From: Alteromonadaceae bacterium
GTDB lineage: Bacteria; Pseudomonadota; Gammaproteobacteria; Pseudomonadales; Oleiphilaceae
DNA length: 64,000 nt
Reading direction: 5' to 3'
Assembly (NCBI GenBank): GCA_013393545.1
Contig: JABXHG010000001.1
Span: forward strand, 1 to 64,000
The position numbers and the translations under genes were made by a program. Shown here one piece after another: positions 42,925 through 58,294 of this stretch; positions within the stretch are counted from its first letter, which is position 1; every line of letters starts with the position of its first letter. A model generated the notes under the pieces. That model searched no databases. It was not told the origin of the DNA and saw only the letters and a list, made by a program, of their open reading frames with translations.

Positions 42925-43032
42925 CTAGGTACCACAATGGCGGCTAAAGGTTCCCATGCGCCGGGGGCTCCGGTATGGTCTGCTCCGGTAAACTTGACCC
43001 TTTAGGTCCATATTCAGAGGAGGTAACAGACC

Positions 43033-43506
43033 GTGCAATCCACGCTGAAATTAATGATTGGCGCATTGCTCCTGGCCATCATCATGCCGCTGGCTCCGGC
43101 GCACGCAGGCGACAACGCCGATGATGCCACGGTGGAAGCTCTGCGCGAAGATGTTGCAAACCTGAACCGGGAGCTGCAGGAGTTCACGGCTGAGCGGCGT
43201 GAACGTTTGATGATGGATATCGAAGACGTTCTGGATTCCATTGATGCTCGGATAGCTGCATTGGAATCGCGGCTGCGTGAGAACCGGAATAAAGTGGACC
43301 AGTTAACCCGGGCGCAGGCACAAACTGCATTGGCCTCGCTGCGCCGTGAGCGGGCACGGGTAACCGAGTGGTACCAGCGAATGGAAGATAGCGCTAACTT
43401 TACCTGGGAATCCATGAAAGAAGGCTTTAACGAGGCGTTCGGTCAGCTTTCCGAAGATTGGGAAAGTGCCGAGCAGGCAGTACGGGACGCCGACGAACAA
43501 CAGTGA
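43033..43506 (+). CDS. Periplasmic coiled-coil protein
   Basis: A 157-residue protein starting at GTG 43033, with GAGGAGG well placed upstream. Signal peptide 1-25 (cleavage after AHA); the mature part is a long charged helix (LREDVANLNRELQEFTAERR, ARIAALESRLRENRNKV, ASLRRERARVTEWYQRM), predicted coiled coil. No enzymatic motif. Likely an envelope structural or stress protein. Confidence 0.7.
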   Translation: MQSTLKLMIGALLLAIIMPLAPAHAGDNADDATVEALREDVANLNRELQEFTAERRERLMMDIEDVLDSIDARIAALESRLRENRNKVDQLTRAQAQTALASLRRERARVTEWYQRMEDSANFTWESMKEGFNEAFGQLSEDWESAEQAVRDADEQQ

Positions 43507-43540
43507 CAATTAACCAGTGGCTGCAGTCGGTTAATGTGTA

Positions 43541-44554
43541 TTAACGGCTCTGATAAAAGCTTTTGATGGCCTGCAGCAAAGTGTCGATGTCCGGCTGACT
43601 GATATCCACGTGGGTAACAAACCGGATGGGGTTGGCCACTTTGATCAGAATGCCCTCACGCGCCAGATAATCGCTCAGTTCTCCAGTTTTGCCCAGGCGG
43701 CAGCGGGCGTGAACCATATTGGTTTGAGGGCTGTCGGGGGCTACTTCCAGTTCGGGGATGCTGGCCAGCCCTCTGGCCAGGTACTGCGCATTGGCGTGGT
43801 CGTCCTGCAGGCGCAGGGGTCCCTGCTCCAGCGCGATCTGCCCGGCAGCGGCCAGTATGCCGGCCTGGCGCATGCCGCCACCGACCATTTTTCGCAGCCG
43901 CCTGGCCCGTTCGATAAAGGCTCCGGGGCCCAGCAGCAAGGAGCCCACGGGTGCCCCCAGTCCTTTTGACAAACAGACGCTGACCGAATCGTAGTACCGT
44001 GTGATGTCGGTTATGTCGCAACCCGTTTCTACCGCAGCATTGAAGACCCGGGCGCCATCCAGGTGCAACAGGAGCCCATGGTTGTCGCAGAATTGGCGGG
44101 CCTGTTGCTGGTAGTCCAGAGACAGTACCCGGCCGCCGATGGTGTTTTCCAGCGACAGCAGGCGGGTGATGGCAAAGTGCGCGTCGGCCGGTTTGATGGC
44201 GGCGCGGGCCTTGTCCAGGCTGATGCTGCCATCGGGCTCGTTTTCAATCGGCTGTGGCTGCACACTGCCCAATACGGCAGCACCGCCGCCTTCATAGCGG
44301 TAGTTGTGGGCGTTCTGCCCGCACAGGTATTCATCTCCCCGGCCACAATGGGCCATGATGGCCAGCAGGTTGGCCTGAGTGCCGCTGGCGGTGAACAAGG
44401 CGGCTTCAAAGCCCAGGCGTTCGGCGGCGTAGCTCTGCAGGCGGTTAATGGTCGGGTCATCTCCGTAAACATCGTCGCCCACTTCGGCATTGGCCATGGC
44501 TTCGCGCATGGCCGTGGTCGGCTGGGTTACCGTGTCGCTGCGGAAATCGATCAT
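43541..44554 (-). CDS. ltaE: Low-specificity L-threonine aldolase
   Basis: A 337-residue PLP enzyme that cleaves threonine/allo-threonine to glycine and acetaldehyde. It starts MIDFRSDTVTQPT, has GDDVYGDDPT, HLDGARVFNA, and the PLP-lysine in SVCLSKGLGAPVGS. ATG 44554 is the family start, though the frame continues upstream 33 codons. It is divergent from the NAD(P)-binding protein gene. Confidence 0.93.
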   Translation of the reverse strand: MIDFRSDTVTQPTTAMREAMANAEVGDDVYGDDPTINRLQSYAAERLGFEAALFTASGTQANLLAIMAHCGRGDEYLCGQNAHNYRYEGGGAAVLGSVQPQPIENEPDGSISLDKARAAIKPADAHFAITRLLSLENTIGGRVLSLDYQQQARQFCDNHGLLLHLDGARVFNAAVETGCDITDITRYYDSVSVCLSKGLGAPVGSLLLGPGAFIERARRLRKMVGGGMRQAGILAAAGQIALEQGPLRLQDDHANAQYLARGLASIPELEVAPDSPQTNMVHARCRLGKTGELSDYLAREGILIKVANPIRFVTHVDISQPDIDTLLQAIKSFYQSR

Positions 44555-44679
44555 GTGCAGTGCGCCTCGTCTTGTCTGGAAAGCGTTCGCCGGAGCCGGC
44601 CCGGTGACCTTGAATTGTGCCTGCCGCGCATTCAGGGATAAAGTGTCAGTCATTACTCAAAGGAATCAGGAGAGTTTTC

Positions 44680-45327
44680 ATGCACGTATTTATTGCCGGC
44701 GCCAACGGGCAAATTGGCCAACACCTGCTGCAGGAAATGGCAGAGAGTGATCACGAGGCGCGCGCCCTTATTCGCCACCCGGGCCAGGGGCCGGACCTGC
44801 AAAAACTCGGTGCCACGGAAACGGTGGTGGGCGATCTGGAGCACGATTGTAGCGAAGCCATGCGTGGTTGTGATGCGGTGGTGTTTACCGCAGGCTCTGG
44901 CCCGCATACCGGCCCGGACAAGACCATTGATGTGGACCAGGACGGTGCCATTCGGCTGATTGATACGGCCAAAGCCATGGGTATCAAACGGTTCATCATG
45001 GTCAGCGCCCTGCGTGCGGAGAACCCGGATGAAGGCCCGGAGAAGCTACAGCATTACTTGTGGGCCAAGCGCAAGGCGGACGATCACCTGAAAGCCAGCG
45101 GGCTGGACTACACCATCGTGCGCCCGGGCCGGCTGACGAGCGAAGAAGGCAGCGGTAAGGTGGCGGTTTCTGTTACGCCGTCCGAACTGGGCTACATTCC
45201 CCGGGAAGATGTGGCCAAAGTGCTTCTGGCGGTGCTGGATGCGGACAACACCCACAGGCTGGTGTTTGATGTGATCTCCGGCGAGACACCGGTCGGTGAA
45301 GCTGTCGCCAGCCTCGTTAGAGGCTAA
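44680..45327 (+). CDS. NAD(P)-binding atypical SDR family protein
   Basis: A 215-residue Rossmann protein: HVFIAGANGQIGQHLLQEM (GxxGxxG), VVGDLEHD, KRFIMVSALRA, YTIVRPGRLT, LGYIPREDVA. This is the YwnB/HSCARG-like atypical SDR group, often NAD(P)-sensing or reducing. ATG 44680 follows CAGGAGAG. Confidence 0.88.
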   Translation: MHVFIAGANGQIGQHLLQEMAESDHEARALIRHPGQGPDLQKLGATETVVGDLEHDCSEAMRGCDAVVFTAGSGPHTGPDKTIDVDQDGAIRLIDTAKAMGIKRFIMVSALRAENPDEGPEKLQHYLWAKRKADDHLKASGLDYTIVRPGRLTSEEGSGKVAVSVTPSELGYIPREDVAKVLLAVLDADNTHRLVFDVISGETPVGEAVASLVRG

Positions 45328-45345
45328 CGAGGCCGGTTAAAGTGC

Positions 45346-45483
45346 TTAATCACGGTCGGCTTTGCGTTCGATGGCTTCGCCGGCCTGCTTCATGTCTTTG
45401 CCCAAACCTTCCATGGTGTTGCAGCCGGCCAGTGCGGTGCCCAGCACGAGGGTCAGCAACATGGTTCGAAGCGTAAATTTCAT
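45346..45483 (-). CDS. Entericidin A/B family lipoprotein
   Basis: A 45-residue lipoprotein easily missed because of its size. Signal and lipobox MLLTLVLGTALAGC with Cys21 as the acylated residue, then NTMEGLGKDMKQAGEAIER, the entericidin signature. CGGGAG lies upstream of the ATG. Entericidins are small cell-envelope lipoproteins; a toxin/antidote role is known for the E. coli pair, but only one is seen here. It is convergent with the NAD(P)-binding protein gene. Confidence 0.9.
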   Translation of the reverse strand: MKFTLRTMLLTLVLGTALAGCNTMEGLGKDMKQAGEAIERKADRD

Positions 45484-45577
45484 TGTGTTCTCCCGGGTTC
45501 AAGGTTCAGCGCTTGTGAATTCAAACAGGCTCCGGTGGTTTGCACAAGCCCGATGAGATGAATTTGCGTTCAGAATC

Positions 45578-45991
45578 TCACACCTTCACTTTTCCCCGTA
45601 GCGCCTTGGTTTTCCCGTGTTTGATTTTCTTGTCCACGCGCTTGCGTTTGGCGGATCTGGAGGGTTTGGTCGGGCGGCGAGCTTTTTGCGGTTTGACCGC
45701 TTCCTGAATCAGGGTTTTCAGCCGTTGTAGGGCATCGTCCTTGTTTTGCTCAAGGGTGCGGAACGATTGAGCCTTGATGATAATAATGCCGTCTTTGCTG
45801 ATGCGCTGGTCCGAAAGCGCCATTAGCCGTTCCTTGTAGAACGGCGGCAGCGACGAATGCAGAATGTCGAATCGCAAATGCACGGCGGTGGCAACCTTGT
45901 TCACATTCTGCCCGCCCGCACCCTGGGCGCGGATCTGGCTAAGCTCTAGTTCCCAGTCGGCAATTTCAACCGCATTGGAGATTTTCAGCAT
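45578..45991 (-). CDS. arfB: Alternative ribosome-rescue factor/peptidyl-tRNA hydrolase ArfB (YaeJ)
   Basis: A 137-residue protein with the RF-like core: RAQGAGGQNVNKV containing the GGQ, then the long basic C-terminal tail (KARRPTKPSRSAKRKRVDKK and onward) that enters the mRNA channel of stalled ribosomes. A DnaA-box dyad repeat lies about 90 bases upstream of its start. Confidence 0.93.
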   Translation of the reverse strand: MLKISNAVEIADWELELSQIRAQGAGGQNVNKVATAVHLRFDILHSSLPPFYKERLMALSDQRISKDGIIIIKAQSFRTLEQNKDDALQRLKTLIQEAVKPQKARRPTKPSRSAKRKRVDKKIKHGKTKALRGKVKV

Positions 45992-46067
45992 GGGTGTTAT
46001 CCATTGGTCAATTTCCCTTCAGTTTGCGCAGGGCCGGTGTTTCTGGCCCTTCAGGGCACCTATCCTG

Positions 46068-46165
46068 TTCATGCTAACAAAGTTATCCACAGTTTTTGTG
46101 AGTAACTGGCCCGATTTCCCGGTAAGCCGATTGTTCTTAACATCGCGTTTTGGCTGGCTCGGCCA
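46068..46165. repeat. DnaA-box dyad repeat, copy 1 (upstream of arfB)
   Basis: TTATCCACA (46084-46092) and inverted TTACTCACA (complement of 46098-46106) form a 23-bp dyad, preceded by CTAACAAAG. The next 60 bases are alignable with the region after the dyad at 59199-59221 (shared blocks: CGATT-GTT-T-AACA-TCGC-T-TGG then CGGCC). Together with that site it forms a dispersed repeat of about 85 bp. Confidence 0.6.
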
Positions 46166-47144
46166 GATTGTGGTGACATGACCTCTGGACGTGGCTGCTG
46201 CTCTTAAACAAAAGCGAACATTCGCACCGCGACCAGACCGACGGGTTTGCTCGGGCCTTGGAGTCCGTGACGAATCATTCGTGGACGGATTGCGTCTGGG
46301 TTAACATCGTGAGACGGCTCAATCTGGGCGCAACCATCCATCCGACTCTTCGGGCGCAAGAAAACAAATGTCGTTATCTTTTAATCAGTGTTAGGAAAGG
46401 TCAGGAAGTGACATAAGCCCCCTTAGATCAAACAGGCATGTTCACTGGATAGCTAAGCCTAAATAACCTAAAGCACTACTTAGATCCCTGCTATTGTTTT
46501 TTAGGTACTGAAGCTGGCATTAGTACCTGTTTCTGAATAAAAACACACTAATGGAACTGTCATTAGGCTGATTTCAATAAAATCTGAGTCAGATCAGGGA
46601 TGACGCTTCTAACGTACAGGGATTTAGCAATGACTCAAACTCTCGCCTGGCGCTCATTAGCCCTAGTCTCCACTGACGTTTTTTCCTGCAACGGATCAGT
46701 GACACCCCAAAACCATGAACATTGTCCGGGCATCACAGCGTCGCCCGGGAAATCGTGTGGCTCAGTTACTTACCCACAACAGAGAGCTTACCTATAAATT
46801 CAGTGCAAATAGGACAGCTTTCCATTGGTGCAGGCCAATCAAAGCCCATGTTCAGAACGCTAAGACTTATGACACCTCATTCTGAAATGAACAATCTCAA
46901 ATTTTCCGCATATTCAAAAAAGTCAACGTTGCAAAACTGATAATGAGAAACCAGCCACACGTCGGCCTGAGTATTTGAGACGACAAGCACATGATCGAAC
47001 ATCTTATGATAAACGAAGTTGACATCACTTAACGGACTCATAGACTGTGCCGCGCTTAGTATCAACATATGCGGAATTGTAATATAAATGATCTCCGAAG
47101 TGCTCAACACTAAGCAAATGGATTAAAATCAATGGAGCTGTACT
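46166..47144. other. Gene-poor left edge of the AT-rich island
   Basis: Nearly 1 kb without a credible gene; frames here (for example at 46600 and 46722) lack ribosome sites, family similarity and typical composition. It contains an imperfect palindrome around 46262-46289 (TCCGT-ACGAAT/ATTCGT-ACGGA type) and a 13-bp sequence at 46211-46223 repeated in inverse orientation beyond the right edge at 54915-54927. Composition shifts to AT-rich from about 46380. A promoter candidate lies near its right end. Confidence 0.5.
47019..47046 (+). promoter_or_regulatory. Candidate promoter of the island operon
   Basis: TTGACA (47019-47024) and TAGACT (47041-47046) spaced by 16 bases, about 100 bases before the first gene of the island operon. 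The -35 is perfect, the -10 matches at four of six positions. Confidence 0.35.
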
Positions 47145-48050
47145 ATGAATCAACCCGCCTACGCAATTACACCTGATTTCCAGTCTTATTTCGACGATTC
47201 CGGCTACATGACAGCGCCTTTTAGCGTGACTGAGCATCTAGAGGAAAATCGAGAAGCGGTTGAAAAGCTGCAAAAACTTACCGATATCCTGACGAATTTG
47301 GAGCAGGAGCGGGTTGATCTTGAAGCAAGGAAACTTCAAGACGCGCTCAATAAAATTAGCGGATTTACAAAAAAAATCGTTGATCATGCAAATGGGTTGC
47401 ATGACGATTTTGCAAAAGCAGTTTTAAAGGCTGGTGAAAGCGGGCTAATAACAAAAGAAGGACTGACGAATTTCTTCATTCAAGGTTGGTATCACACGCG
47501 TTATACCCCGAAATTCGAGCACCTCTTTACAAAATTGGTCGAAGAAAAAGTCAAAAGTCATGAAGTAAATTTAGATGACGTAGATGATAGAGAAAATAAG
47601 TTCAATAAAATGATGACCCACGATATTGATGAAGAAGAAGGTCATGAGCTGTGGGCCCTTCAGGATGTGCTGTTTCTCGGGCAAAAAGATTCGATAGACG
47701 TTATGCACGATGTCTATCCTGAGACAAAGGCAATTATTTGGAGCCAACACGACAGGCTGAACAGGCTCCCATTTATCGGATTCCTCGGATACTCGTTCTA
47801 TCTTGAATTTATGATCGCTACAAGGTCGATGGACATCCTCGGTGTGCTGAACAAGGCGCTGGGAACAAAGCCATCCGACCATAAGTTTATTTACTATCAC
47901 TACATCGTTGACCAGGGACATGCCATCGACAACATTGAGCTTCTAGACCGCATGGTAAACAGCGAAGAAGAATGTAATGAAATAATCGACAATATGAACT
48001 TTATACACACCATGTATAAAGGGCTCACATTGCGCTCTTTCGGGCTCTAA
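47145..48050 (+). CDS. Haem-oxygenase-like diiron oxidase candidate (iron-containing redox enzyme family)
   Basis: A 301-residue soluble, all-helical protein. The central and C-terminal part fit the Haem_oxygenas_2/HDO fold: E164-x2-H167 in DIDEEEGHELW, E221 in FLGYSFYLEFM, and H252/D256-x2-H259 in YYHYIVDQGHAIDN. Order and approximate spacing of E-x2-H, E and D/H resemble UndA-type diiron enzymes as I remember them. HDOs oxidise fatty acids or amino-acid-derived substrates with O2. The N-terminal ~110 residues (helical, ENREAVEKLQKL) are additional. TGGAGC precedes the ATG. It heads the island operon; a Fre-like reductase encoded further down could supply electrons. Confidence 0.65.
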   Translation: MNQPAYAITPDFQSYFDDSGYMTAPFSVTEHLEENREAVEKLQKLTDILTNLEQERVDLEARKLQDALNKISGFTKKIVDHANGLHDDFAKAVLKAGESGLITKEGLTNFFIQGWYHTRYTPKFEHLFTKLVEEKVKSHEVNLDDVDDRENKFNKMMTHDIDEEEGHELWALQDVLFLGQKDSIDVMHDVYPETKAIIWSQHDRLNRLPFIGFLGYSFYLEFMIATRSMDILGVLNKALGTKPSDHKFIYYHYIVDQGHAIDNIELLDRMVNSEEECNEIIDNMNFIHTMYKGLTLRSFGL

Positions 48051-48055
48051 AAGTT

Positions 48056-48071
48056 GGCCGCCTTGGCGGCC
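48056..48071 (+). terminator. Hairpin with T-rich tail after the oxidase gene
   Basis: GGCCGCC-TT-GGCGGCC followed by TCCTTCCTTTTCC directly after the oxidase stop. It could be an intrinsic terminator or partial attenuator separating the oxidase from the downstream genes of the operon. Confidence 0.55.
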
Positions 48072-48133
48072 TCCTTCCTTTTCCAAAAGAATTGAAATGC
48101 CACCTCTGAATTTCATTTGTAAAGGATGTACAA

Positions 48134-48814
48134 ATGCCAGCAGCTCCAAGAGATATTAAGTTTGTGCTCTGTCCGAAGAACAGTGACGAGTTTCTTGATG
48201 GACGATCCCTCGCAAAGGATATTTATAAAAAAAGCTGGGGTACAAATAAGATGGGCGACGACTACGACATCGGGATTGTGGCCTATGAACAAAATGAAGT
48301 AATTGGCAATATCAATATAAAGCTACCAGACCACAAGAATAAGCTTCCAACAGATAAGTATTTTATTCCCGGCGAGATACCTGAGTACGCAATTTCAAAC
48401 AGACGCAGCATGGCTGAGCTCTGTGGGCTTTCTGTCAGCGATCAAATCAAAAGTGAGCACCGAGCCTACACCTTAGGAGGTCTCATCGTTGGCGCGCACA
48501 TGGCAGCATACCAGTCTGACATCACGGTGTTCGCCACAGCGCAACGAAAGCCATTGATCTCGAAACTGCAAAATATGTATCACTACCCCTTTGATCATTC
48601 TGTAGGTGCGGACGTCAGCTGCGAAAATCTGCCGGAGGATCTCTATTGGCAAAGCAATTGTAAGCCTAATCTATATTATATTGACCTAACCAGCACGAAA
48701 ACAATCCAGTCAAGCATGGCAATATTATTAAAGCTATCCCAGTTTGATATTAACATTAGTAACCGCTTGTCGTTAGGAGAATTCATCAATGAAAAAAGTC
48801 AAGCAATGGCATGA
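48134..48814 (+). CDS. AHL-synthase/N-acyl-amino-acid-synthase-like GNAT acyltransferase
   Basis: A 226-residue protein with the autoinducer-synthase/FeeM fold layout: an Arg-containing helix ending in W (RSLAKDIYKKSW), DDYDIGIVAYEQNEVIGNINIKLP, then MAELCGLSV in the place of the LuxI ELSRFCV strand, and LGGLIVGAHMAAYQ, TVFATAQRKPLISKL as in the second half. LuxI/FeeM enzymes join acyl-ACP with an amine. Individual LuxI catalytic residues are only partly conserved, so substrate cannot be given; an N-acyltransferase role is inferred. AAAGGATG precedes the ATG. Its 3' end overlaps the next gene. Confidence 0.55.
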   Translation: MPAAPRDIKFVLCPKNSDEFLDGRSLAKDIYKKSWGTNKMGDDYDIGIVAYEQNEVIGNINIKLPDHKNKLPTDKYFIPGEIPEYAISNRRSMAELCGLSVSDQIKSEHRAYTLGGLIVGAHMAAYQSDITVFATAQRKPLISKLQNMYHYPFDHSVGADVSCENLPEDLYWQSNCKPNLYYIDLTSTKTIQSSMAILLKLSQFDINISNRLSLGEFINEKSQAMA

Positions 48815-49043
48815 TCGAGCGCTGTTAGAAAGCGCGAAGCAACAAAAGCTATATCTTATCATTATTTATGTTTTTGTAGGCTTGGCTGCAGCATTCATAG
48901 GGATCATGTTGTCAAAAAACGCTCCAATTCTTGACGTTCTTCTCGTATCGGGATCCGGTCTTGTGGGTCTGAGTATCGAAAAGTTGGTGAATAGAAGGAT
49001 TGAATACCTGAGGAAACAAAAATCGGAAGTAAAATCGCTATGA
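48789..49043 (+). CDS. Small two-helix membrane protein
   Basis: An 84-residue protein with transmembrane helices at about 21-42 and 47-65 and basic ends (KKVKQWHDR; RRIEYLRKQK). No family recognised. It overlaps both neighbours (26 bases upstream, 4 bases ATGA downstream), so it is translationally coupled to the exporter and may be an accessory subunit. Confidence 0.65.
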   Translation: MKKVKQWHDRALLESAKQQKLYLIIIYVFVGLAAAFIGIMLSKNAPILDVLLVSGSGLVGLSIEKLVNRRIEYLRKQKSEVKSL

Positions 49044-51349
49044 ACCCAGCTAAAAATAATCAGTTTGATAAAGGCGCTTTTGTTGTTCTACTCGCAATAT
49101 TGCTGCTAGCAGCTGGATTATTCCGTCTGTCATTCAATACTGATTATAGAGTTTTTTTTTCGCCAGGCGATGAAACGTTACAAACGTTAAATCAAATGGA
49201 GAACACTTTCGGTCCGAGTGATAATATTCTATTAGTAATTGATTATGGGAACATATCAACGAATCGCGAACAGGCAACAGAATTAGTCCATTGGGTTACG
49301 CAGGAAAGCTGGTACTTACCATACACCCGACGGGTTGATTCGATATCAAATTACCAACATACTCTAAGCAATGGTGATGAATTAGAAATAAACAACCTCA
49401 TAGAAAGCGTCGAAACTAGAGAGGGAAGTAACCTTTTTGATGAGGCTTTAGGAATAAAGCAGCTGAAAGGAAGGTTAATCTCTAATAATGACCTAACCGC
49501 AATCAATATCTCCTTCCGATTACCGCGTAAGGATCTCGAAAAAGAGGTTCCGTATGTCATTTCTTCAGTTGAATCACTGATTGAGAAAGCAAAAGTGAGG
49601 TCACCTGAGGCCAACTTTTATGTTACTGGAACGCTGCCTTTTACTAATGCCTTTACTGAAGCCACCCAAGCTGACGTTAAAAATCTAACTCCGGCCATGC
49701 TCTTAATAATGGCACTCGTCATTTTGGTCATTTTTCGCTCCTATGCGACGATATTAGCGGCCCTTTCAGTAATCTTGCTTTCGCTGCTTGGTTCGCTTGG
49801 GTTCTGTGGCTGGGTAGGAATCGAAATGAGTGGTGGTAACAGCCCTGCACCTTTTATAATTATCGCACTTTCAATCGCAGGTTGTGTTCACTTAATAAAT
49901 AGTATAGCGATCAACATCGCGGATGGTTTAGATAAATCACACAGCGTGACCAAAGCTGTCCAGGAAAACAAGACACCGATCGCGCTCACAAGCCTAAGTA
50001 CTATTCTGGGTTTTCTAGCAATTAATATTAGCGAGGTGCCACCCTATCAAGATTTGGGGAACATGGTAGTCGTTGGGGTATTTGTTGCGTTCATATCTAC
50101 AATCTTTGTAGCGCCAGCAATCCTCACTCGGGCTGAGCCGAAACATAAATTAATGATTCTCGATAATTTCCTTGATCAACTTCCTTACTTTTGCCAGCGT
50201 TTCAAGTTGGCGATTATATTAGTTTTTGTATTGGGAATCACGGTCTCATTGATTTTTGTCTCAAAGTCATCATTAAATGACGATTTTGTCCGATTGTTTG
50301 ATGAAAGTATGGAGTTCAGGTCGGATACAAAATTTACGGAACAAAATCTAACTGGCATCAACAACTATGAAATTATTGTCGAGTCAGCAACAGGCGGCCC
50401 AGTCTATGATACAGCACCAATAAGCGAAGTGAAGGAGCTAATCGATTGGATAAAACAAAAATTCCCAAATGTTCATGTAAGCTCGGTAATTGACGTTATT
50501 GAGGTGCTTCACAAGAATTTGGACGACGAAAGATCTACGGCAATTCCTTCTGATTCAAACCTGATCGCGCAATACCTTCTTCTCTATGAAATGTCGATGC
50601 CAAAAGGTCTTGAATTAGACAGTTTGCTTAGCTCTGATAAACGCCAACTGAAAATTTCGGTTACTGCAGCTTCAACTACAACGGAGAGAACACTTCAATT
50701 TGAGAAATCTGTGAATAAGTGGGTGAAAACTAATGCTCCTCACATTTCAATCGATATAACGGGCACATCTTTGTTATTTGCTCATATGGGAATGAAAAAT
50801 TCTAAGAGCATGATCGTCGGGACCTCACTTTCATTACTCTTTATATCATGTTTCCTATTGGTCGCATTAAGGTCTTTTAAATATGGTGTACTAAGTATTA
50901 TCCCAAACATTGTCCCTGCGATTCTTGGTTTTGGTGTTTGGGTGGCATTTGGTGGGATGATTGAACTGCCAATCACTCTTGTTGTGGCTATGACCCTCGG
51001 TGTTGTTGTCGATGATACTGTCCACTTTTTGCACCATTACATTTATGCAAAAAGATCCCTTAATCATAACTGCGTTGAGTCTCTTAGACATAGCATGAAA
51101 AAAGTCGGAGGAGCGATTATTCTCACAAGTGTCATCTTGGTGCTTGGATTTGCTGTAATGTCATTTTCAGTTTTTGAGGCCAATGCCAAAATGGCAATAG
51201 TCAGTGGAATGGTATTCGTTTTTGCGGTAATTATCGATCTTCTCCTACTGCCGTGTCTGATTCTGTTAATCGACGGTAATAAAGACCACGTGGAAGCTCA
51301 GGTTAATGCCTCGATTCCTTCCTCTAATAATGCATTATCAAGGGAATGA
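49040..51349 (+). CDS. RND-superfamily (MMPL/HpnN-like) exporter
   Basis: A 769-residue inner-membrane protein with two halves, each one helix, a large periplasmic loop and five helices. The loops start after FNTDYRVFFSPGD and KSSLNDDFVRLFDES. SSD-like helices include PFIIIALSIAGCVHLINS and LVVAMTLGVVVDDTVHFLHH, with the acidic VVDDT pair for proton coupling. Such COG1033 transporters export lipids and other hydrophobic compounds together with LolA-like and outer-membrane partners, both of which follow here. The ATG overlaps the preceding stop. Confidence 0.88.
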   Translation: MNPAKNNQFDKGAFVVLLAILLLAAGLFRLSFNTDYRVFFSPGDETLQTLNQMENTFGPSDNILLVIDYGNISTNREQATELVHWVTQESWYLPYTRRVDSISNYQHTLSNGDELEINNLIESVETREGSNLFDEALGIKQLKGRLISNNDLTAINISFRLPRKDLEKEVPYVISSVESLIEKAKVRSPEANFYVTGTLPFTNAFTEATQADVKNLTPAMLLIMALVILVIFRSYATILAALSVILLSLLGSLGFCGWVGIEMSGGNSPAPFIIIALSIAGCVHLINSIAINIADGLDKSHSVTKAVQENKTPIALTSLSTILGFLAINISEVPPYQDLGNMVVVGVFVAFISTIFVAPAILTRAEPKHKLMILDNFLDQLPYFCQRFKLAIILVFVLGITVSLIFVSKSSLNDDFVRLFDESMEFRSDTKFTEQNLTGINNYEIIVESATGGPVYDTAPISEVKELIDWIKQKFPNVHVSSVIDVIEVLHKNLDDERSTAIPSDSNLIAQYLLLYEMSMPKGLELDSLLSSDKRQLKISVTAASTTTERTLQFEKSVNKWVKTNAPHISIDITGTSLLFAHMGMKNSKSMIVGTSLSLLFISCFLLVALRSFKYGVLSIIPNIVPAILGFGVWVAFGGMIELPITLVVAMTLGVVVDDTVHFLHHYIYAKRSLNHNCVESLRHSMKKVGGAIILTSVILVLGFAVMSFSVFEANAKMAIVSGMVFVFAVIIDLLLLPCLILLIDGNKDHVEAQVNASIPSSNNALSRE

Positions 51350-51352
51350 TTT

Positions 51353-52051
51353 ATGTCGGTTGGTCGCATTTTTAAAATGGAGCTTTTAGATAAAGACGAC
51401 CCCCATTCAAGGGTTGTTAAGATTAAGTTCAGGGTAGAAAATGGTTTTAAGCTTAACGCCCTCCCTGGGCAATATCTTATTATCAAAGATGATGGATGCG
51501 AATTCCCCTTTTCGATTGCGAATAAAGACGACGACCTTCTTGATATTCACGTGAAGAAGGGCGGAAGTCCACGGGTCGAAAAGCTTCTTGAAGAGATTTG
51601 CTTCAAAACCGAAGTAGCGGCCATGGGTCCGTTTGGAGATGCAGTTTTTCAGATGAGTAATTCTCCTTCGGATGTAGTGTTCGTCTGTGCTGGTGTTGGG
51701 TACGCTCAAAGCCATTCCTATTTACGTGAACTGGATATGACGTCCTTCGCTTCCGTTGAGCGTGTTTCGTTGATTTGGTTAGTGGATGATTTTGAAAGTG
51801 TCTACGACCATGAGTTTCTTATGGGATTGGAAAGCAAATGGTCAAAGTTTGACGTTACACTGGTTTGTGAAACAGCGGAGAAATGTGGCTTCAATTCGGT
51901 ATCGCCCGAGTCTTTCAATTCATTCTTATCTACTCGAATTCGGCCTAGCACTCGTGTCTTCGTATCTGGCCCAAGAAACTTATCACTGGATGTTAGTCGA
52001 ACGCTCTCGCAAAAAGGGCACGATGAAAAAATCGTTTCTGATTTTCTCTAG
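51353..52051 (+). CDS. Fre/LuxG-like NAD(P)H-flavin reductase
   Basis: A 232-residue protein of the ferredoxin-reductase fold: FAD/FMN side LPGQYLIIKDDGCEFPFSIAN (the usual RPYSIAS replaced by EFPFSIAN), glycine-rich GPFGDAVF, NAD(P) side VVFVCAGVGYAQSHSYLRELD, and SGPRNLSLDV near the C-terminus. No [2Fe-2S] domain, as in Fre. It may reduce free flavin or directly serve the operon's diiron oxidase (inference). It starts three bases after the exporter stop. Confidence 0.8.
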   Translation: MSVGRIFKMELLDKDDPHSRVVKIKFRVENGFKLNALPGQYLIIKDDGCEFPFSIANKDDDLLDIHVKKGGSPRVEKLLEEICFKTEVAAMGPFGDAVFQMSNSPSDVVFVCAGVGYAQSHSYLRELDMTSFASVERVSLIWLVDDFESVYDHEFLMGLESKWSKFDVTLVCETAEKCGFNSVSPESFNSFLSTRIRPSTRVFVSGPRNLSLDVSRTLSQKGHDEKIVSDFL

Positions 52052-52090
52052 ATTAAAGAGTTATGTCTTGCGATTCTGAAATTTCATTAA

Positions 52091-52927
52091 ATGGTATTAG
52101 CTATGATTCGATATCTCTACGTTTTGCAGGCAATTGCCTGGTTGGTAATAAGTACGATGTCCCAAATTGCCTTTGGGCAGACTGAAGCGGAAGGGAGTCC
52201 CTCGGCGGAAGAGAAAGGGCTAGAAATTGCTTTGGAAGCTGATCGCCGTAGTAGTGGGTATGAAGACTTCGAAGCAGATATGGAGATGATTCTGATAGAT
52301 GCCTCTGGTGAAGAATCATTGCGCCACCTCACGGTAAAGAATCTTGAGGTGAACTCAGACAATGAGAAAGATCGGAGTTTGATCAGCTTCCATCAGCCGC
52401 GGGACGTTCGTGGTACTGCCCTTCTCACGTTTACTTATATTGAAAAAGACAATGATCAGTGGCTTTACTTACCGGCTTTGAAAAGGGTTAAAACGATCGT
52501 TTCTAGCAATAAGTCCGGGCCTTTCATGGGAAGTGAATTTAGTTTTGAGGACATGACCACTCAGATTGTTGAGAAATACGACTATCGCTTCATCAGATCT
52601 GAAGAATGTGGAAACATCGAATGCTATGTGGTTGAAAGAACGCCAAAGAGTGAAGATTCGGGGTATTCGCGGGAAGTGATATGGTTGGATAACGATGAGT
52701 TCAGGACCCAGAGAGTTGATTATTACGATAGGCGAAATCGGTTTGTAAAGACACTTAGTTTAGAGGACTACCAGCTCTATAAAAATGAGTTCTGGCGCCC
52801 GTCCAATATGGTGATGACGAACCATGAAACGGGTAAAGGAACGATTCTCAATTGGTCGAAGTACCAATTTGGCACAGGACTTGGCAAGTCTGACTTTAAT
52901 CGCAATGCGTTAAAGCGCATTAGGTGA
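52091..52927 (+). CDS. LolA-like outer-membrane lipoprotein-sorting family protein
   Basis: A 278-residue periplasmic protein with a signal peptide (cleavage after about residue 30, AFGQ) and the COG2834/PF17131 pattern: HLTVKNLEVNSDNEKDRSL, FHQPRDVRGTALLTFTY, QWLYLPALKRVKTIVSSNKS, MGSEFSFEDMT. It has a LolA-type half-barrel fold binding hydrophobic cargo. These genes commonly accompany RND exporters of this class. ATG 52091 or 52103 may be the start. Confidence 0.85.
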   Translation: MVLAMIRYLYVLQAIAWLVISTMSQIAFGQTEAEGSPSAEEKGLEIALEADRRSSGYEDFEADMEMILIDASGEESLRHLTVKNLEVNSDNEKDRSLISFHQPRDVRGTALLTFTYIEKDNDQWLYLPALKRVKTIVSSNKSGPFMGSEFSFEDMTTQIVEKYDYRFIRSEECGNIECYVVERTPKSEDSGYSREVIWLDNDEFRTQRVDYYDRRNRFVKTLSLEDYQLYKNEFWRPSNMVMTNHETGKGTILNWSKYQFGTGLGKSDFNRNALKRIR

Positions 52928-52930
52928 TTT

Positions 52931-54211
52931 GTGCGCTTGCTACGACTTATATTCATTCTGTCGGTTAGTCAGTACGCCTATGCAATTGATTTTAGGGGGC
53001 AGGCCTCGGCTGAAACTCGGTATTTTTTTGAGCCGTCGCCTTATGAAAAAAGTAACTACAGAGTAAACAATTCCGCGTCATTGGTAACAGATGTTTTCAG
53101 TGCTTCGTCTGATTACACTGATCTTTTTCGATTTGTTTCTTATTTTCGTGTTGATCAGCATGATTCTAATCGCACAAGTATTGATGTAAGGGAATTATCT
53201 TGGATTCACGTTGCTGATAATTGGGAGACCCGAGTTGGCGTATACAAGTCTTTTTGGGGCGTAACGGAGGGAAGGCATCTTGTTGATATAGTCAATCAGA
53301 CGGATTTGGTTGCCCAGCCTGATGGCGATGAGAAGTTGGGGCAGCCGATGATTAATCTGTCTATCGCTGGTAGTTCGGGAATTTTGGATGTCTTTCTACT
53401 CTCAGGCTTCAGAGAGCGCACTTTTCCGGGACCTTCCGGGCGCCCTAGGCTCCCTCTTACGGTTTCAGACAATGCCGCATACGAAAGTGGAGCAAAGAGA
53501 GCAAGACTGAGCGGGGCGATTCGATACCAAAATTACACAGAATTTGGTTTGGAATATGCCGTTTCCCATTTTTCTGGTACCTCGCGTGACCCATTACTAA
53601 TTCCCGAACCGCTCTCAGCTAGTGAGATATCGGAGTTCTCAACGACTGGAGAGCTCAGAAATGCTCAGGATAAAGAGTTCATTCCGTTTTATTCTGTCAT
53701 CGATCAGTCTGGCCTCGAGCTGCAGCAACAAATTGACGCTTGGCTGTTAAAACTCGAGGCGATTAGCAGAAGTGGCCAAGGAGATAGGTATTGGGCCGTA
53801 GACACTGGTTTTGAATACATTCAGGGAAGTGCATTTGGAAGTAACCTAGATATAGGTTGGTTGGCAGAATATCTCCATGAGCAAAGAGAAACTGCGTTGG
53901 CAAGTCCATTTGATAATGACATTCTATTGGGGGTGAGGCTCACATTGAACGACGCAGAGTCAACGCAAGCGTTGGTTGCTCTGATGCATGACCTCGAAAC
54001 CGAGGAAAATGTTTTTACCTTTGAGGCGAGTCGTCGTTTGTCCTCTAGATTCAAGGTGACTGTGGAATCGCAAGTTTTCACGAACTCTATGGAGCCTCGA
54101 ACTGCCACAGAGGTTTACAAAGCTTCGTCTGACGACAATATTGAGAATCGTGGATTTAGTGCGGTAAGTCGTTCTGACTTTGTCCAAGCTGAGCTAGTTT
54201 ACTTTTTTTGA
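52931..54211 (+). CDS. DUF1302-like outer-membrane beta-barrel
   Basis: A 426-residue protein starting at GTG 52931 after AGGTG, with a signal peptide (1-18, ending AYA). The mature part alternates amphipathic strands, for example IDVRELSWIHVADNWETRVGVY, and ends in VQAELVYFF, a C-terminal Phe typical of BAM substrates. It resembles the porin partners of RND/LolA-like export sets. Its start is three bases after the LolA-like stop. It is likely the outer-membrane exit or receptor of the system (inference). Confidence 0.75.
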   Translation: MRLLRLIFILSVSQYAYAIDFRGQASAETRYFFEPSPYEKSNYRVNNSASLVTDVFSASSDYTDLFRFVSYFRVDQHDSNRTSIDVRELSWIHVADNWETRVGVYKSFWGVTEGRHLVDIVNQTDLVAQPDGDEKLGQPMINLSIAGSSGILDVFLLSGFRERTFPGPSGRPRLPLTVSDNAAYESGAKRARLSGAIRYQNYTEFGLEYAVSHFSGTSRDPLLIPEPLSASEISEFSTTGELRNAQDKEFIPFYSVIDQSGLELQQQIDAWLLKLEAISRSGQGDRYWAVDTGFEYIQGSAFGSNLDIGWLAEYLHEQRETALASPFDNDILLGVRLTLNDAESTQALVALMHDLETEENVFTFEASRRLSSRFKVTVESQVFTNSMEPRTATEVYKASSDDNIENRGFSAVSRSDFVQAELVYFF

Positions 54212-54438
54212 TCAATCCGATTTGTAGAAAAACTAGCTAATTCTCCATAGTGATCGGATCTAACCTGCTGTTCAGAGTCCAATAGGGAGGCAATGCATTG
54301 GTGCAGTTTCCATTTGAGAACACCAAAATTACCAGAGTAGAAGCATTGTTTTGGGCGATTAGCGGGTCATTGTAGCGCTGGAATTGGAGGAGTCGAGGTG
54401 GCGGAGTCTTTAGCTCTCTTGGGTGCACTTCTTACGCT

Positions 54439-54747
54439 GTGGCCCTCGGCGTTTTTGGTCTGACAGCTCCTCAAAAGGTTGCGAGATTTGTCAATATAAT
54501 TCCTCAGGGAGATCTCGGACTGTTGGAAATCCGTGCAACATATGGCGGTATCTTTATCGGCTTAGGGTTTTCTTGCTTGTGGTTTCAACAGCCTGTTGTA
54601 TACCTCGTCGTTGGGCTTGCCTGGCTCTCTGCAGCATTATCCAGAGCCCTATCAGGTATTGTCGGCAAAGCCTTTAGCTCCAGAGAGATCGGGGGAGTAG
54701 TCATAGAAGCTTGTATCGGCATGCTGTTAATGACCGGAATAAAGTAG
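54439..54747 (+). CDS. DUF4345-like membrane protein, possibly 5'-truncated
   Basis: A 102-residue hydrophobic protein: ALGVFGLTAPQKVARFVNI, LEIRATYGGIFIGLGFSCLWF and three further helices, as in DUF4345. The family usually has one more helix in front. The only start in frame after the stop at 54373 is GTG 54439, without a good binding site, so the gene may be truncated at its 5' end. It sits at the right edge of the AT-rich island. Confidence 0.55.
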   Translation: MALGVFGLTAPQKVARFVNIIPQGDLGLLEIRATYGGIFIGLGFSCLWFQQPVVYLVVGLAWLSAALSRALSGIVGKAFSSREIGGVVIEACIGMLLMTGIK

Positions 54748-55025
54748 CGATTTTTTGCTTCGCTTCAGGCTCAGCCTGCGCGTCGTATGTTTGTTTATAA
54801 TTGGGGAGCGCCCGCTACTGCAAACAGGGTGGCTAACATTATAAAGGGCGGTCTAGCATCTATGTTTCGAGATCATCAATTGCTTATTAAGTGACTAGGA
54901 TTTCAGCGCCATCTGAATGTTCGCTTTGCGACCAAACGGGACACTAGTGACAGCGTCTGGCTCGGGCGAGGGACTTTTCGTTATGATGGCCGCCCATGTT
55001 CCCAATGGTTAAGAGGCCGCCTGCG

Positions 55026-55349
55026 ATGTCCGAAGATCCGCTCAAATCACTGTCCGATATGGCCAGTGAAGCCCATGCCCGTATTCAGGCCACCCACGAA
55101 CACATTAATCCGGTAGTGGAAGTGCGCCAGGGTATGCGTAATTCCGGTATCCCGGCCGATGTAATGACCATTGACTGCCTGCGAACCCGTCGTCGTATCA
55201 CGTTGATTCTGCACGATGAGCAACCCGGCGTTCTGCTTTACCAGTTCATCACTATCGAACAGGAAATGGGCGACGAGTTTCAGCAACTGGCCCTGGCGGA
55301 CATGAGCACCGACAAACTGTTTGCCTGGATTGAGGAGTATTTCGGCTAA
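55026..55349 (+). CDS. Conserved small hypothetical protein
   Basis: A 107-residue soluble protein (SEDPLKSLSDMASEAHARIQ, PVVEVRQGMRNSGIPADVMTIDC, RRRITLILHDEQPGVLLYQF). No family name recognised. AGAGG lies upstream of ATG 55026. It sits just before the AEC transporter gene (36 bases) and has core-like codon use. Confidence 0.6.
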   Translation: MSEDPLKSLSDMASEAHARIQATHEHINPVVEVRQGMRNSGIPADVMTIDCLRTRRRITLILHDEQPGVLLYQFITIEQEMGDEFQQLALADMSTDKLFAWIEEYFG

Positions 55350-55385
55350 CCGGTTGCCCTTGCGCCGTTTTTTCGATCCCCGCCT

Positions 55386-56264
55386 ATGTTCCAACATCTT
55401 GCTAACGCTCTGGTTCCGCTTTTTTCCCTGATTGCCCTGGGCGCCGTGCTCGGGCGTAAAACCGATTTTTTTGATGGCCGGGCGTTGTCTGGCCTGGTGA
55501 CCACTGTCGGTATTCCAGCGCTGCTGTTGCACTCGGTGCTGTCCATGGACATGAAGATTGGCCAGATGGGTGAGCTGGTGGCCATTACCGTGGTGTGGGT
55601 TGTGGTGATGGCGCTGGTGACTGCAGCGGTTTTGCGGCTGGCCGGTTTCCCCGTGCGGGATTATCTGCCGGCGCTGGTTCACCCCAATACCGGCAACATG
55701 GGGGTGCCGGTGTGTTATGCCCTGTTCGGGCCGCAGTCTCTGGGCCTGGCTATGGTGATCTCTTCGGTGATCCAGATCAGCCACTTTACGTTGGGCATTG
55801 GCTGTTTGTCGAAACAGTTTTCTCTGGCGGCCCTGGTTCGCAATGGGCCGGTACTGGCACTGGCGGCGGGCGCTGGCTTGCTGGCCATGGAAACCACACT
55901 GCCGTCGCCGGTCATGACCACACTGGATATGCTGGGTTCGATTACCGTGCCGATCATGCTGATGCAGTTGGGCAGCTCCATTGCCAACCTCAGGCTCTCC
56001 TGTGGCCGTGAAATGCTTTGGCCGGTGGCTTTCAGTTTTTACCGGCCGCTGGCGGGGTTGGGCGTGGCCTGGCTGGTACTACTGTTCTGGCCATTGGGGC
56101 AGGTGCAGGCACAGATCTTCCTGGTGCAGTGCGCCATGCCCGTTGCCGTGATGAGTTACGTACTGGCCGTCAGATACCATGGGCCGGCCCAGGTTATAGC
56201 CCTCACCATTCCCTTGTCTGTGGTTGTGTCGTTGGCTGTGGCTATTGCCTTCACTAGCGTTTGA
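55386..56264 (+). CDS. AEC family transporter
   Basis: A 292-residue inner-membrane protein with about ten helices in two inverted halves (PALLLHSVLSMDMK, HPNTGNMGVPVCYALFGPQSLGLAM in the first; QLGSSIANLRLSCGREM and QCAMPVAVMSYVLAVRYHG in the second). The auxin efflux carrier family exports organic anions; substrate unknown. Its 3' end overlaps the convergent gene by eleven bases. Confidence 0.87.
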   Translation: MFQHLANALVPLFSLIALGAVLGRKTDFFDGRALSGLVTTVGIPALLLHSVLSMDMKIGQMGELVAITVVWVVVMALVTAAVLRLAGFPVRDYLPALVHPNTGNMGVPVCYALFGPQSLGLAMVISSVIQISHFTLGIGCLSKQFSLAALVRNGPVLALAAGAGLLAMETTLPSPVMTTLDMLGSITVPIMLMQLGSSIANLRLSCGREMLWPVAFSFYRPLAGLGVAWLVLLFWPLGQVQAQIFLVQCAMPVAVMSYVLAVRYHGPAQVIALTIPLSVVVSLAVAIAFTSV

Positions 56265-56913
56265 AAAATCGCGGATTGCGGGCAACAAAGCTGTCAATCC
56301 AGCGTTCCAGGAAGGATCTCTGTTCCGGGTTTTTCAGGTAGCGCCAGCCCAAAAAAGAAACGATAAGCGCGCCCAGGGCATCCACAATCAGATCCCACAT
56401 GGTGTCGGTCAGCCCGGAAGGGTCATCCAGCATGGGTTTTTGCATATTCATGCCGAAAAGCGAATCCATGGTGAATTCGAAGATTTCCCACAGAGCCCCC
56501 ATGCCCAGGGCAAACAGAAATGCGAAGAAGGCAACAAAGCCGGCTTTCATGTGTAACTGCAGCTTTTCGGTTTCATTCATGATGTGCACGAGCAAAAAGC
56601 CGAGAATGCCCAGCAGAAATCCGGAGGAGGTGTGCAGCAGGATGTCCCACCACCAGAAACGGGTGTAATATCCATGCACCTCGCCCAGGAACAGCGAGGC
56701 AAAGACAAAGCCGATGGCCGCCAGTTGCAGTTCCGGCGGTATATGGATCCGGAAACGCCGCTCAAAAAGTACCGGGAAGAAGGTGATCAGGATGATCATG
56801 CTGGTGAGAAAGGCAATGAACCATTTCTGGCTCCACAGGGCCAATAAGGCCTCGGCCAGTAGGATCATCTGCAGCACGGCTGTAATTCGTTGATGTGTAA
56901 TTCGAATGCGCAT
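56254..56913 (-). CDS. DUF2238 (YjdF-like) membrane protein
   Basis: A 219-residue polytopic protein: FASLFLGEVHGYYTRFWWWD, LLHTSSGFLLGILGFLLVH, GALWEIFEFTMDSLFGMNMQ, DTMWDLIVDALGALIV. The paired His/Glu/Trp motifs in helices match DUF2238 (PF09997). Function unknown. Monocistronic. Confidence 0.8.
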   Translation of the reverse strand: MRIRITHQRITAVLQMILLAEALLALWSQKWFIAFLTSMIILITFFPVLFERRFRIHIPPELQLAAIGFVFASLFLGEVHGYYTRFWWWDILLHTSSGFLLGILGFLLVHIMNETEKLQLHMKAGFVAFFAFLFALGMGALWEIFEFTMDSLFGMNMQKPMLDDPSGLTDTMWDLIVDALGALIVSFLGWRYLKNPEQRSFLERWIDSFVARNPRFFKR

Positions 56914-57047
56914 AAGTGTAAGTTAACACGAATGACGACGGTAACCTGACAGGCGCTGCAATTGAAGTGTTGTGCGCTATCCTCAAATGAACGGTGAAGA
57001 GTTTGATTCTATCGCTCGGGTTGTCCTGCTGGTTATCAGGGTGGTTC

Positions 57048-57410
57048 ATGAAGGTTCTCAAGGTGATTGTGATTACTGTCGTTTGGCCGACGGTGGCGTT
57101 AATCTTGTCCGGATGCGGTGGTGGAGGCGGCGAAGGGAATAGCGATGGGTCCTCGGCAACTCTGCGTTGGGTGGCCCCTGCAACGAGGGTCGACGACCAG
57201 GGATTGAAAATGGGAGAGTTGGATGGCTATATAATCAGTTATGGCCAGGATAGCGCTAATCTGGATTCACGAATTATGCTAAATGACGCCAGTGTCATGA
57301 AATTCACCCTGCAAGGCCTGACAAACGGTCGATGGTTCTTCTCGGTGCAGACGGTAGATGTGAACGGATTAGTCAGCGCGCCTTCCCCCCAGGTGAGTAA
57401 AGTTATTTGA
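57048..57410 (+). CDS. Lipoprotein with fibronectin type III-like domain
   Basis: A 120-residue protein: signal peptide and lipobox ALILSGC, a Gly-rich linker (GGGGGEGN), then ATLRWVAPATRVDDQG, LDGYIISYGQDS and GRWFFSVQTVDVNGLVSAPS, an FN3 strand pattern. ATG 57048 places the lipobox normally; an in-frame ATG at 56994 would lengthen the signal peptide. Likely surface or periplasmic binding module. Confidence 0.7.
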   Translation: MKVLKVIVITVVWPTVALILSGCGGGGGEGNSDGSSATLRWVAPATRVDDQGLKMGELDGYIISYGQDSANLDSRIMLNDASVMKFTLQGLTNGRWFFSVQTVDVNGLVSAPSPQVSKVI

Positions 57411-57433
57411 CGACCCTTCCAAGTGGAAAAAAC

Positions 57434-58294
57434 ATGCAAAGAATCAGATTTTCAGCTGTTATCGTGGCGTGCCTTTTGTTACTGACGGCCTGTGCCGGCC
57501 CTGAATCACCGGAAGAGGTTTCCCGCGCCTTCTGGCAGGCGGTGATCAACCAGGATCCAGCCAGGGCAAATGATTACTCTACGTTGATTGAAGACGCCGC
57601 CTTTGATGGCTACCAGCGTGATTGGCAGGGCGTTGACGTGGAGTGGGGCCGGGTGGTGATCGATGGCCAGGAGGCCACCGTTGATACTGTGTTCAGTGGG
57701 GTGCCGGAGCGTGCTGAGCCCTTGGAAACGACCACCTATCTGGTAAAAAAAGACGATCAGTGGCTGGTGGACTACTTTCGCACCGGCGAGGCCCTGAATA
57801 GTGGCCCTCTGTGGAGCGATGTGATGAACCAGCTCGAAGCGCTGGGCAAAGACCTACAAACGGAACTGGCGCGCCACTCGGATGACCTGGCCCGGGAGTT
57901 TGACGCCCTGACTGAGTCACTGAACCGACAGGCCGCCGAGGCGGGTGAAAGCTTGTCTGCCCTGGTGGATGATTACGGCCAGATGCTGCGCCAGCATATT
58001 GAACAATTGTCCGACTCTCTGCGCGAGGCGCTGAAAAACAATCCTGAAGCCTCTGTTGAGGATCGCCAACTGCTTAACGAAGCTGTGATTCGCCTGGAAG
58101 AGCAGAGTGAGGCCCTGCAGGACCCGGATGTGGAGTCGGTAACTGAGAGCACACGGGTGGCTCTGGCGACCGAGCTGCAGCTTGGTGAGCTGGGAGATGA
58201 ATTCGCAGCTTACAAGGCCGAATGGCAGCAACGGCTGGCGGAAATGGAGAAAGAGTTGGCGGAGTACGCGGACCAGCTGCAGAACGAAAACTGA
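57434..58294 (+). CDS. Lipoprotein with DUF4878/NTF2-like domain and coiled coil
   Basis: A 286-residue protein: lipobox LLLLTAC (Cys18), an NTF2-like part (PEEVSRAFWQAVINQDPARA, TTYLVKKDDQWLVDYFRTGE), then long charged helices (about 125-285) predicted to form coiled coil. No ribosome site is strong; the ATG at 57434 fits the signal. Function unknown; envelope-associated. Confidence 0.75.
   Translation: MQRIRFSAVIVACLLLLTACAGPESPEEVSRAFWQAVINQDPARANDYSTLIEDAAFDGYQRDWQGVDVEWGRVVIDGQEATVDTVFSGVPERAEPLETTTYLVKKDDQWLVDYFRTGEALNSGPLWSDVMNQLEALGKDLQTELARHSDDLAREFDALTESLNRQAAEAGESLSALVDDYGQMLRQHIEQLSDSLREALKNNPEASVEDRQLLNEAVIRLEEQSEALQDPDVESVTESTRVALATELQLGELGDEFAAYKAEWQQRLAEMEKELAEYADQLQNEN

Follow-up and report, generated by a model that had tools for sequence, protein, structure and literature searches.

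What could seven closely packed genes of unusually low GC content be making in a gammaproteobacterium, and where might their product go? The question is raised by nucleotides 47145..54211 (+) of the window analyzed here, the first 64,000 nucleotides of contig JABXHG010000001.1 from an Alteromonadaceae bacterium (assembly GCA_013393545.1). The seven open reading frames of this block, all on one strand, encode a putative haem-oxygenase-like dimetal oxidase (HDO), a LuxI/FeeM-fold acyltransferase, a small membrane protein, an RND/MMPL transporter, a Fre/LuxG-like flavin reductase, a LolA-like carrier, and a candidate outer-membrane barrel (Table 1). We observe an unusual, testable gene set made of known kinds of parts, in which a four-gene core (HDO, acyltransferase, small membrane protein, and reductase) and a separate, common transport trio (RND protein, LolA-like carrier, and barrel) are interleaved: the RND gene lies between those of the small membrane protein and the reductase, and the reductase gene in turn splits RND from LolA. 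Confidence in the folds and gene content is high. In gene order, the junctions measure 83, -26, -4, 3, 39, and 3 bases, and the packing described in the original prediction, with most genes overlapping or 1 to 4 bases apart, holds for four of the six (-26, -4, 3, and 3), the remaining two being wider (83 and 39). The cluster is a candidate second dedicated HDO-reductase pair after MboAB, points to N-acyl amino acids as the likely class of substrate, adds a product transport route in the same gene block, and suggests what a frequent gammaproteobacterial operon with a "hemolysin" name may do.

Table 1. Positions of the features discussed (in the window unless a locus is named)
Feature	Size	Position	Strand	Remarks
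Putative HDO (haem-oxygenase-like dimetal oxidase)	301 aa	47145..48050	+	PF14518; putative ligands E164, H167, E221, H252, D256, H259
Stem-loop	6 G-C pairs, 4-nt loop	48056..48071	+	HDO-acyltransferase gap; pattern scan only
LuxI/FeeM-fold acyltransferase	226 aa	48134..48814	+	predicted fold
Small protein	84 aa	48789..49043	+	two hydrophobic stretches; conserved IEKLVxRRI; no Pfam match
RND/MMPL transporter	769 aa	49040..51349	+	PF03176, 111.6 bits
Fre/LuxG-like flavin reductase	232 aa	51353..52051	+	between RND and LolA genes; without C-x4-C-x2-C
Periplasmic LolA-like carrier	278 aa	52091..52927	+	PF17131, 208 bits; hydrophobic N terminus
Outer-membrane barrel candidate	426 aa	52931..54211	+	C-terminal Phe; no Pfam match; homologues adjoin LolA_like in 24/30 loci
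DUF4345 gene		54439-54747		just past the barrel gene
RTX-repeat protein	2962 aa	166-9054		26 PF00353 stretches
Core-flanking barrels, L001		L001:8228-9451, 12940-14094	opposite to core	PF13372 in both copies scanned
Core-flanking barrels, L002		L002:8271-9494, 13099-14394	opposite to core	
PF12261-ligase-HDO operon (example)		L077:7771-12035		
HDO with FeeM fusion		L003:9803-11586		
Trio with PF12261-ligase-HDO run		L080:2605-11356	one strand	

The HDO identity proposed for the 301-residue protein gained support from a match to PF14518 (30.8 bits; cut-off, 28.9) and from a predicted structure with the haem-oxygenase-like helical fold that characterizes the superfamily. All five ligands named in the original prediction (E164, H167, E221, D256, and H259) are present, and H252, overlooked there, completes the motif H252-x3-D256-x2-H259. 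The resulting 3-His/3-carboxylate set, which defines the superfamily in the available part of PMC13108848, is conserved without exception in the 35 sequences aligned and is also found in all 11 of the distant relatives aligned (of 32). We regard the protein as a putative dimetal oxidase, with spatially clustered ligands, a metal pair, and O2 activation predicted. Fold and ligand set are shared with the superfamily members UndA, CADD, MboA, AetD, and SznF; E86/H89 of MboA has the same E-x2-H spacing as E164/H167, and HX3EX2H of AetD resembles the H-x3-D-x2-H seen here. What sets the window HDO apart from these members is its link to an envelope transporter and to an acyltransferase of the LuxI/FeeM fold. 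Among solved structures, its nearest relative by sequence is 3dde, which bears the title of a domain of unknown function, and functionally validated HDOs number only about a dozen in the available text of PMC13108848.

For the 226-residue protein, the earlier LuxI/FeeM-like assignment agrees with the predicted model, whose ten best structural matches are acyl-homoserine lactone synthases and FeeM. LuxI has invariant residues R24, W34, D45, D48, E100, and R103; compared by eye only, the window protein looks similar at R24, W35, DDYD, and E95, with G98 where R103 is expected. The predicted fold is that of the FeeM/LuxI-type N-acyl synthases, from which the protein differs in its HDO and reductase partners and in the lack of a Pfam match. 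The flavin reductase has no Pfam match above cut-off and missed the NCBIfam Fre model (41.4 bits; cut-off, 230) as well as another model (40.4 bits; cut-off, 340). FSIA/ISIA, GxGxxQ, and SGPR motifs are common to it and to the reductases of the two related loci introduced below, L001 and L002, and all three lack C-x4-C-x2-C. An HDO metal pair needs an external reductant for its recycling. An HDO and a reductase gene in one operon, as in the window, are also described for MboA/MboB, perhaps the first dedicated HDO-reductase pair according to the available part of PMC13185094; MboB, however, is described there as having flavin plus Fe2S2, and the MboA substrate is a tripeptide.

How widely such a core occurs was examined by scanning two conserved HDO motifs over 84,980 species genomes. 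Of the 41 stretches with a motif match, three code for relatives, with identities of 54% (L001), 52% (L002), and 25% (L003). Downstream of the HDO in L001 and L002, on the same strand, come an acyltransferase (34% identity to that of the window; the L001 protein matched nothing in Pfam at E 1), a small protein with two helices (28%), and a flavin reductase (21-22%). Both loci come from gammaproteobacterial metagenome-assembled genomes (MAGs; G001 and G002, respectively) of one family and therefore represent a single lineage. Another two HDO/acyltransferase pairs were inferred indirectly, one of them including the closest HDO relative, P0002 (60%). When whole genomes were searched with the HDO, G001 and G002 were the only two with close relatives among 369 of the class, and G001 the only one among 349 of the phylum; in these samples the window-type HDO family is rare. 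In the HDO tree, four Vibrionaceae HDOs (P0003, P0004, P0006, and P0007) are sister to the window protein plus P0002, with L001 and L002 outside. A further HDO relative, P0027, is from Prochlorococcus. Gene-order and family searches around G001 and G068 took in only 2 and 3 genomes. Among the 369 genomes, the LuxQ-periplasm marker gave no match above cut-off and one below, and the AEC transporter of the window gave none at E 1e-60, a threshold that is probably too strict. We also observe related barrels on the opposite strand to either side of the L001 and L002 cores, with 51-57% identity between sides; phmmer found no match between these and the window barrel.

The transport trio is a common module of its own. 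PF17131, the family of the LolA-like carrier, is present in 58 of 114 sampled genomes, and among the 30 best PF17131 loci an RND homologue is found in 27, a homologue of the window barrel in 24, and all three in 23. The export set recognized earlier was therefore real as a gene set: the three window genes are homologous to those of the 23 complete trios and stand in the same order, with the reductase gene inserted. All 27 comparison loci have the RND and LolA genes side by side, the LolA frame opening from 231 bases before to 55 bases after the RND end. The RND protein has HAE3 (TIGR00921) as its best NCBIfam match (164.8 bits over residues 14-743, below the cut-off of 351.9), and the carrier also matches DUF1329 (PF07044; 54 bits; cut-off, 23.1). 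A HAE3-like RND protein, a DUF1329 carrier of the LolA superfamily, and an outer-membrane protein are likewise combined in AmeABCD, as far as the available part of PMC6394551 describes it. That system differs in that AmeA is a DUF1302 protein, AmeC is a COG4447-type periplasmic protein, and the set lies with monoterpene genes; the window barrel has no DUF1302 match, and no AmeC-type protein occurs among the seven genes. Thalassolituus TOL_3187 and its downstream porin show MMPL and LolA-like parts and a porin with no known domain in the same order as the window, although MMPL and LolA-like parts are described as one protein in the accessible text of PMC6304351, whose authors propose a role in alkane passage. 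Since that set is read as an alkane path, likeness does not fix the direction of transport.

More distant HDOs occur in other surroundings. In the 369-genome sample, 33 genomes gave an HDO match at E 1e-10, and 31 loci (L066-L096; G001 and G002 excluded) were examined in stretches of 6.6-19 kb. In 30 of these a ligase homologue is next to the HDO, with a short-chain dehydrogenase/reductase (SDR) in 30, a tetratricopeptide repeat (TPR) protein in 27, and a PF12261-like gene in 29, as judged by a profile built from 13 upstream proteins that are themselves counted. Three of the upstream proteins were scanned and match PF12261 at 175-197 bits. In L095 the PF12261-like gene is about 2.2 kb from the ligase; the two loci without one are L083, which a contig end truncates, and L093, where the operon is absent. 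A PF12261 "thermostable hemolysin"-like protein, ligase, HDO, SDR, and TPR protein thus form a frequent operon in the sampled Gammaproteobacteria, for which the literature listings gave no described function. The HDO tree groups the 37 core rows on one side of a branch that has full support; L003 and L093 have very long branches, so the pairings may be either ancestral or repeated. L003, from a betaproteobacterial MAG, is arranged differently: the gene for its distant HDO shares 4 bases with one that joins FeeM (38.8 bits) to a cyclic-nucleotide-binding domain. A standing partnership of FeeM with this HDO type was rejected, with no FeeM homologue within about 1.5 kb flanks at any of seven other HDO loci of the family. 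The trio fared similarly as a standing partner of distant HDOs, RND and LolA homologues being found in only 2 of the 31 stretches: in L070 they are 4.9 kb away and the stretch ends inside LolA, and in L080 a complete trio (RND, LolA-like, and barrel) stands 132 bases upstream of PF12261-like, ligase, HDO, TPR, and SDR genes. L080 is an independent meeting of trio and HDO.

Building on computed gene content, two predicted folds, ligand conservation, a recurring core, a separate trio, and their interleaving, we propose the following chain. The LuxI/FeeM-fold enzyme would take an acyl chain from a thioester of the host, be it on acyl carrier protein or coenzyme A, and attach it to an amino acid or a similar amine at the amino group. 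The Fre-like reductase would reduce the HDO with NAD(P)H, and the HDO would then oxidize the amino acid or acyl part with O2 (for example by desaturation, decarboxylation, or N-oxygenation), possibly giving an oxidized acyl product. The two-helix protein may anchor the enzymes at the membrane or pass the product to the pump, after which the RND protein would take it from the inner membrane, the LolA-like protein would ferry it through the periplasm, and the barrel would bring it into or through the outer membrane, assuming export rather than uptake. What we infer from these data is the catalysis at each step, the substrates, and which way the product is moved, and we judge the whole chain to stand at about even chances. 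That their genes are interleaved in the window is the chief reason to think that core and trio act together.

Several observations weigh against this proposal. The seven genes, treated in the original prediction as one unit, do not form a conserved one: they were seen together in the window only, partial sets alone recur in the loci read, and the four-gene core and the common trio occur separately elsewhere. A synteny check recovered HDO, acyltransferase, small membrane protein, and a diverged reductase; the trio was not beside them, none being present in the stretches viewed around L001 and L002, and the trios of G001 and G002 sit on other contigs. Outside the window, the core was read directly in one lineage only. 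The low identity of the reductases, and the fact that phmmer with the window reductase found that of L001 (E 2.9e-5) and missed that of L002 at E 0.01, mean that these may be independent recruitments. The window acyltransferase matches no Pfam family at E 0.5, the LuxI and FeeM models included, and searches of limited sensitivity found no acyltransferase relative for the four Vibrionaceae HDOs.

Other readings of the locus place its parts differently. The HDO could, like UndA, use a free fatty acid as its substrate, the acyltransferase having a side role such as acyl tailoring and the cargo being a hydrocarbon or oxidized fatty acid; CADD and HrmI match the window HDO at least as well, however, the operon has neither ligase nor carrier protein, and wherever a locus was read directly (window, L001, and L002) the acyltransferase gene adjoins the HDO. 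We consider this reading unlikely. That L001 and L002 have the core without the trio, and that the trio is so common, would fit a core making a diffusible acyl signal next to a trio that is an unrelated neighbor in the same transferred segment. We consider this about as unlikely, given that the RND gene overlaps that of the small membrane protein by 4 bases, that the reductase gene splits the trio, and that trio and HDO meet again in L080, although RND and LolA are together in so few of the distant loci.

A tolerance system would have the HDO alter or scavenge something harmful, either a hydrophobic compound or an oxygen species, and the trio expel it, in keeping with AmeABCD guarding against monoterpenes (PMC6394551, available part) and with the predicted HDO DtpC protecting desiccating Acinetobacter (PMC13232832, likewise). 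It would leave the LuxI/FeeM-fold acyltransferase without a role, and a regulator or degradation gene is absent among the seven; we regard it as very unlikely.

Returning to the proposed acyl transfer and oxidation, a broader version would have the HDOs discussed here regularly paired with LuxI/FeeM-like acyltransferases, their operons taking at least three forms: a new acyltransferase with reductase and transporter (the window), FeeM (L003), and PF12261 with an AMP ligase (many Gammaproteobacteria). PF12261 would then be misnamed and the set would make an unrecognized class of oxidized N-acyl lipids, the window being the version with its own reductase and export line. We put this forward tentatively and find it doubtful. 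PF12261 proteins may be acyltransferases; hhalign of the window acyltransferase against them gave a probability of 5% (P 0.0075), the profile link not being significant, and the PF12261 set matched no solved structure by sequence. No work linking PF12261, FeeM, or LuxI with HDO or TenA genes was recognized in literature listings and abstract openings, which include few subscription journals.

The origin of the block is suggested by its composition. Its GC content of 42.6%, compared with at least 52.1% (mean, 55.7%) in 42,801 equal-length segments not touching it, which overlap one another so that only about eight are independent, lies well outside the rest of the window, in line with the transfer suggested earlier. 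GC at third codon positions (GC3) is 0.38-0.49 in the seven genes, compared with 0.63-0.73 in six of the seven nearest neighbors listed and 0.67-0.79 in four of five farther genes. The operon was likely acquired horizontally. Possible vehicles were not found: no tRNA occurs in the window, no Rfam RNA reaches gathering score in 43000-58000, the best flanking direct repeat (26 nt at 77%; 46808 and 54281) is taken as chance, and a plasmid collection had no match to the HDO or acyltransferase. Viral carriage of the HDO was rejected, none of seven stretches matching a motif being confirmed. Promoter-like sites show no excess (12, compared with 16.8 in shuffles). The stem-loop between the HDO and acyltransferase genes is possibly an attenuator or processing hairpin, against a background of 10 terminator-like sites in the region (8.4 expected from shuffles). 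The DUF4345 gene directly downstream has a GC3 of 0.47 and is perhaps within the same transferred segment, which may therefore extend to about 54750. Finally, the large RTX-repeat protein at the start of the window has a GC3 of 0.52, below most other genes measured.
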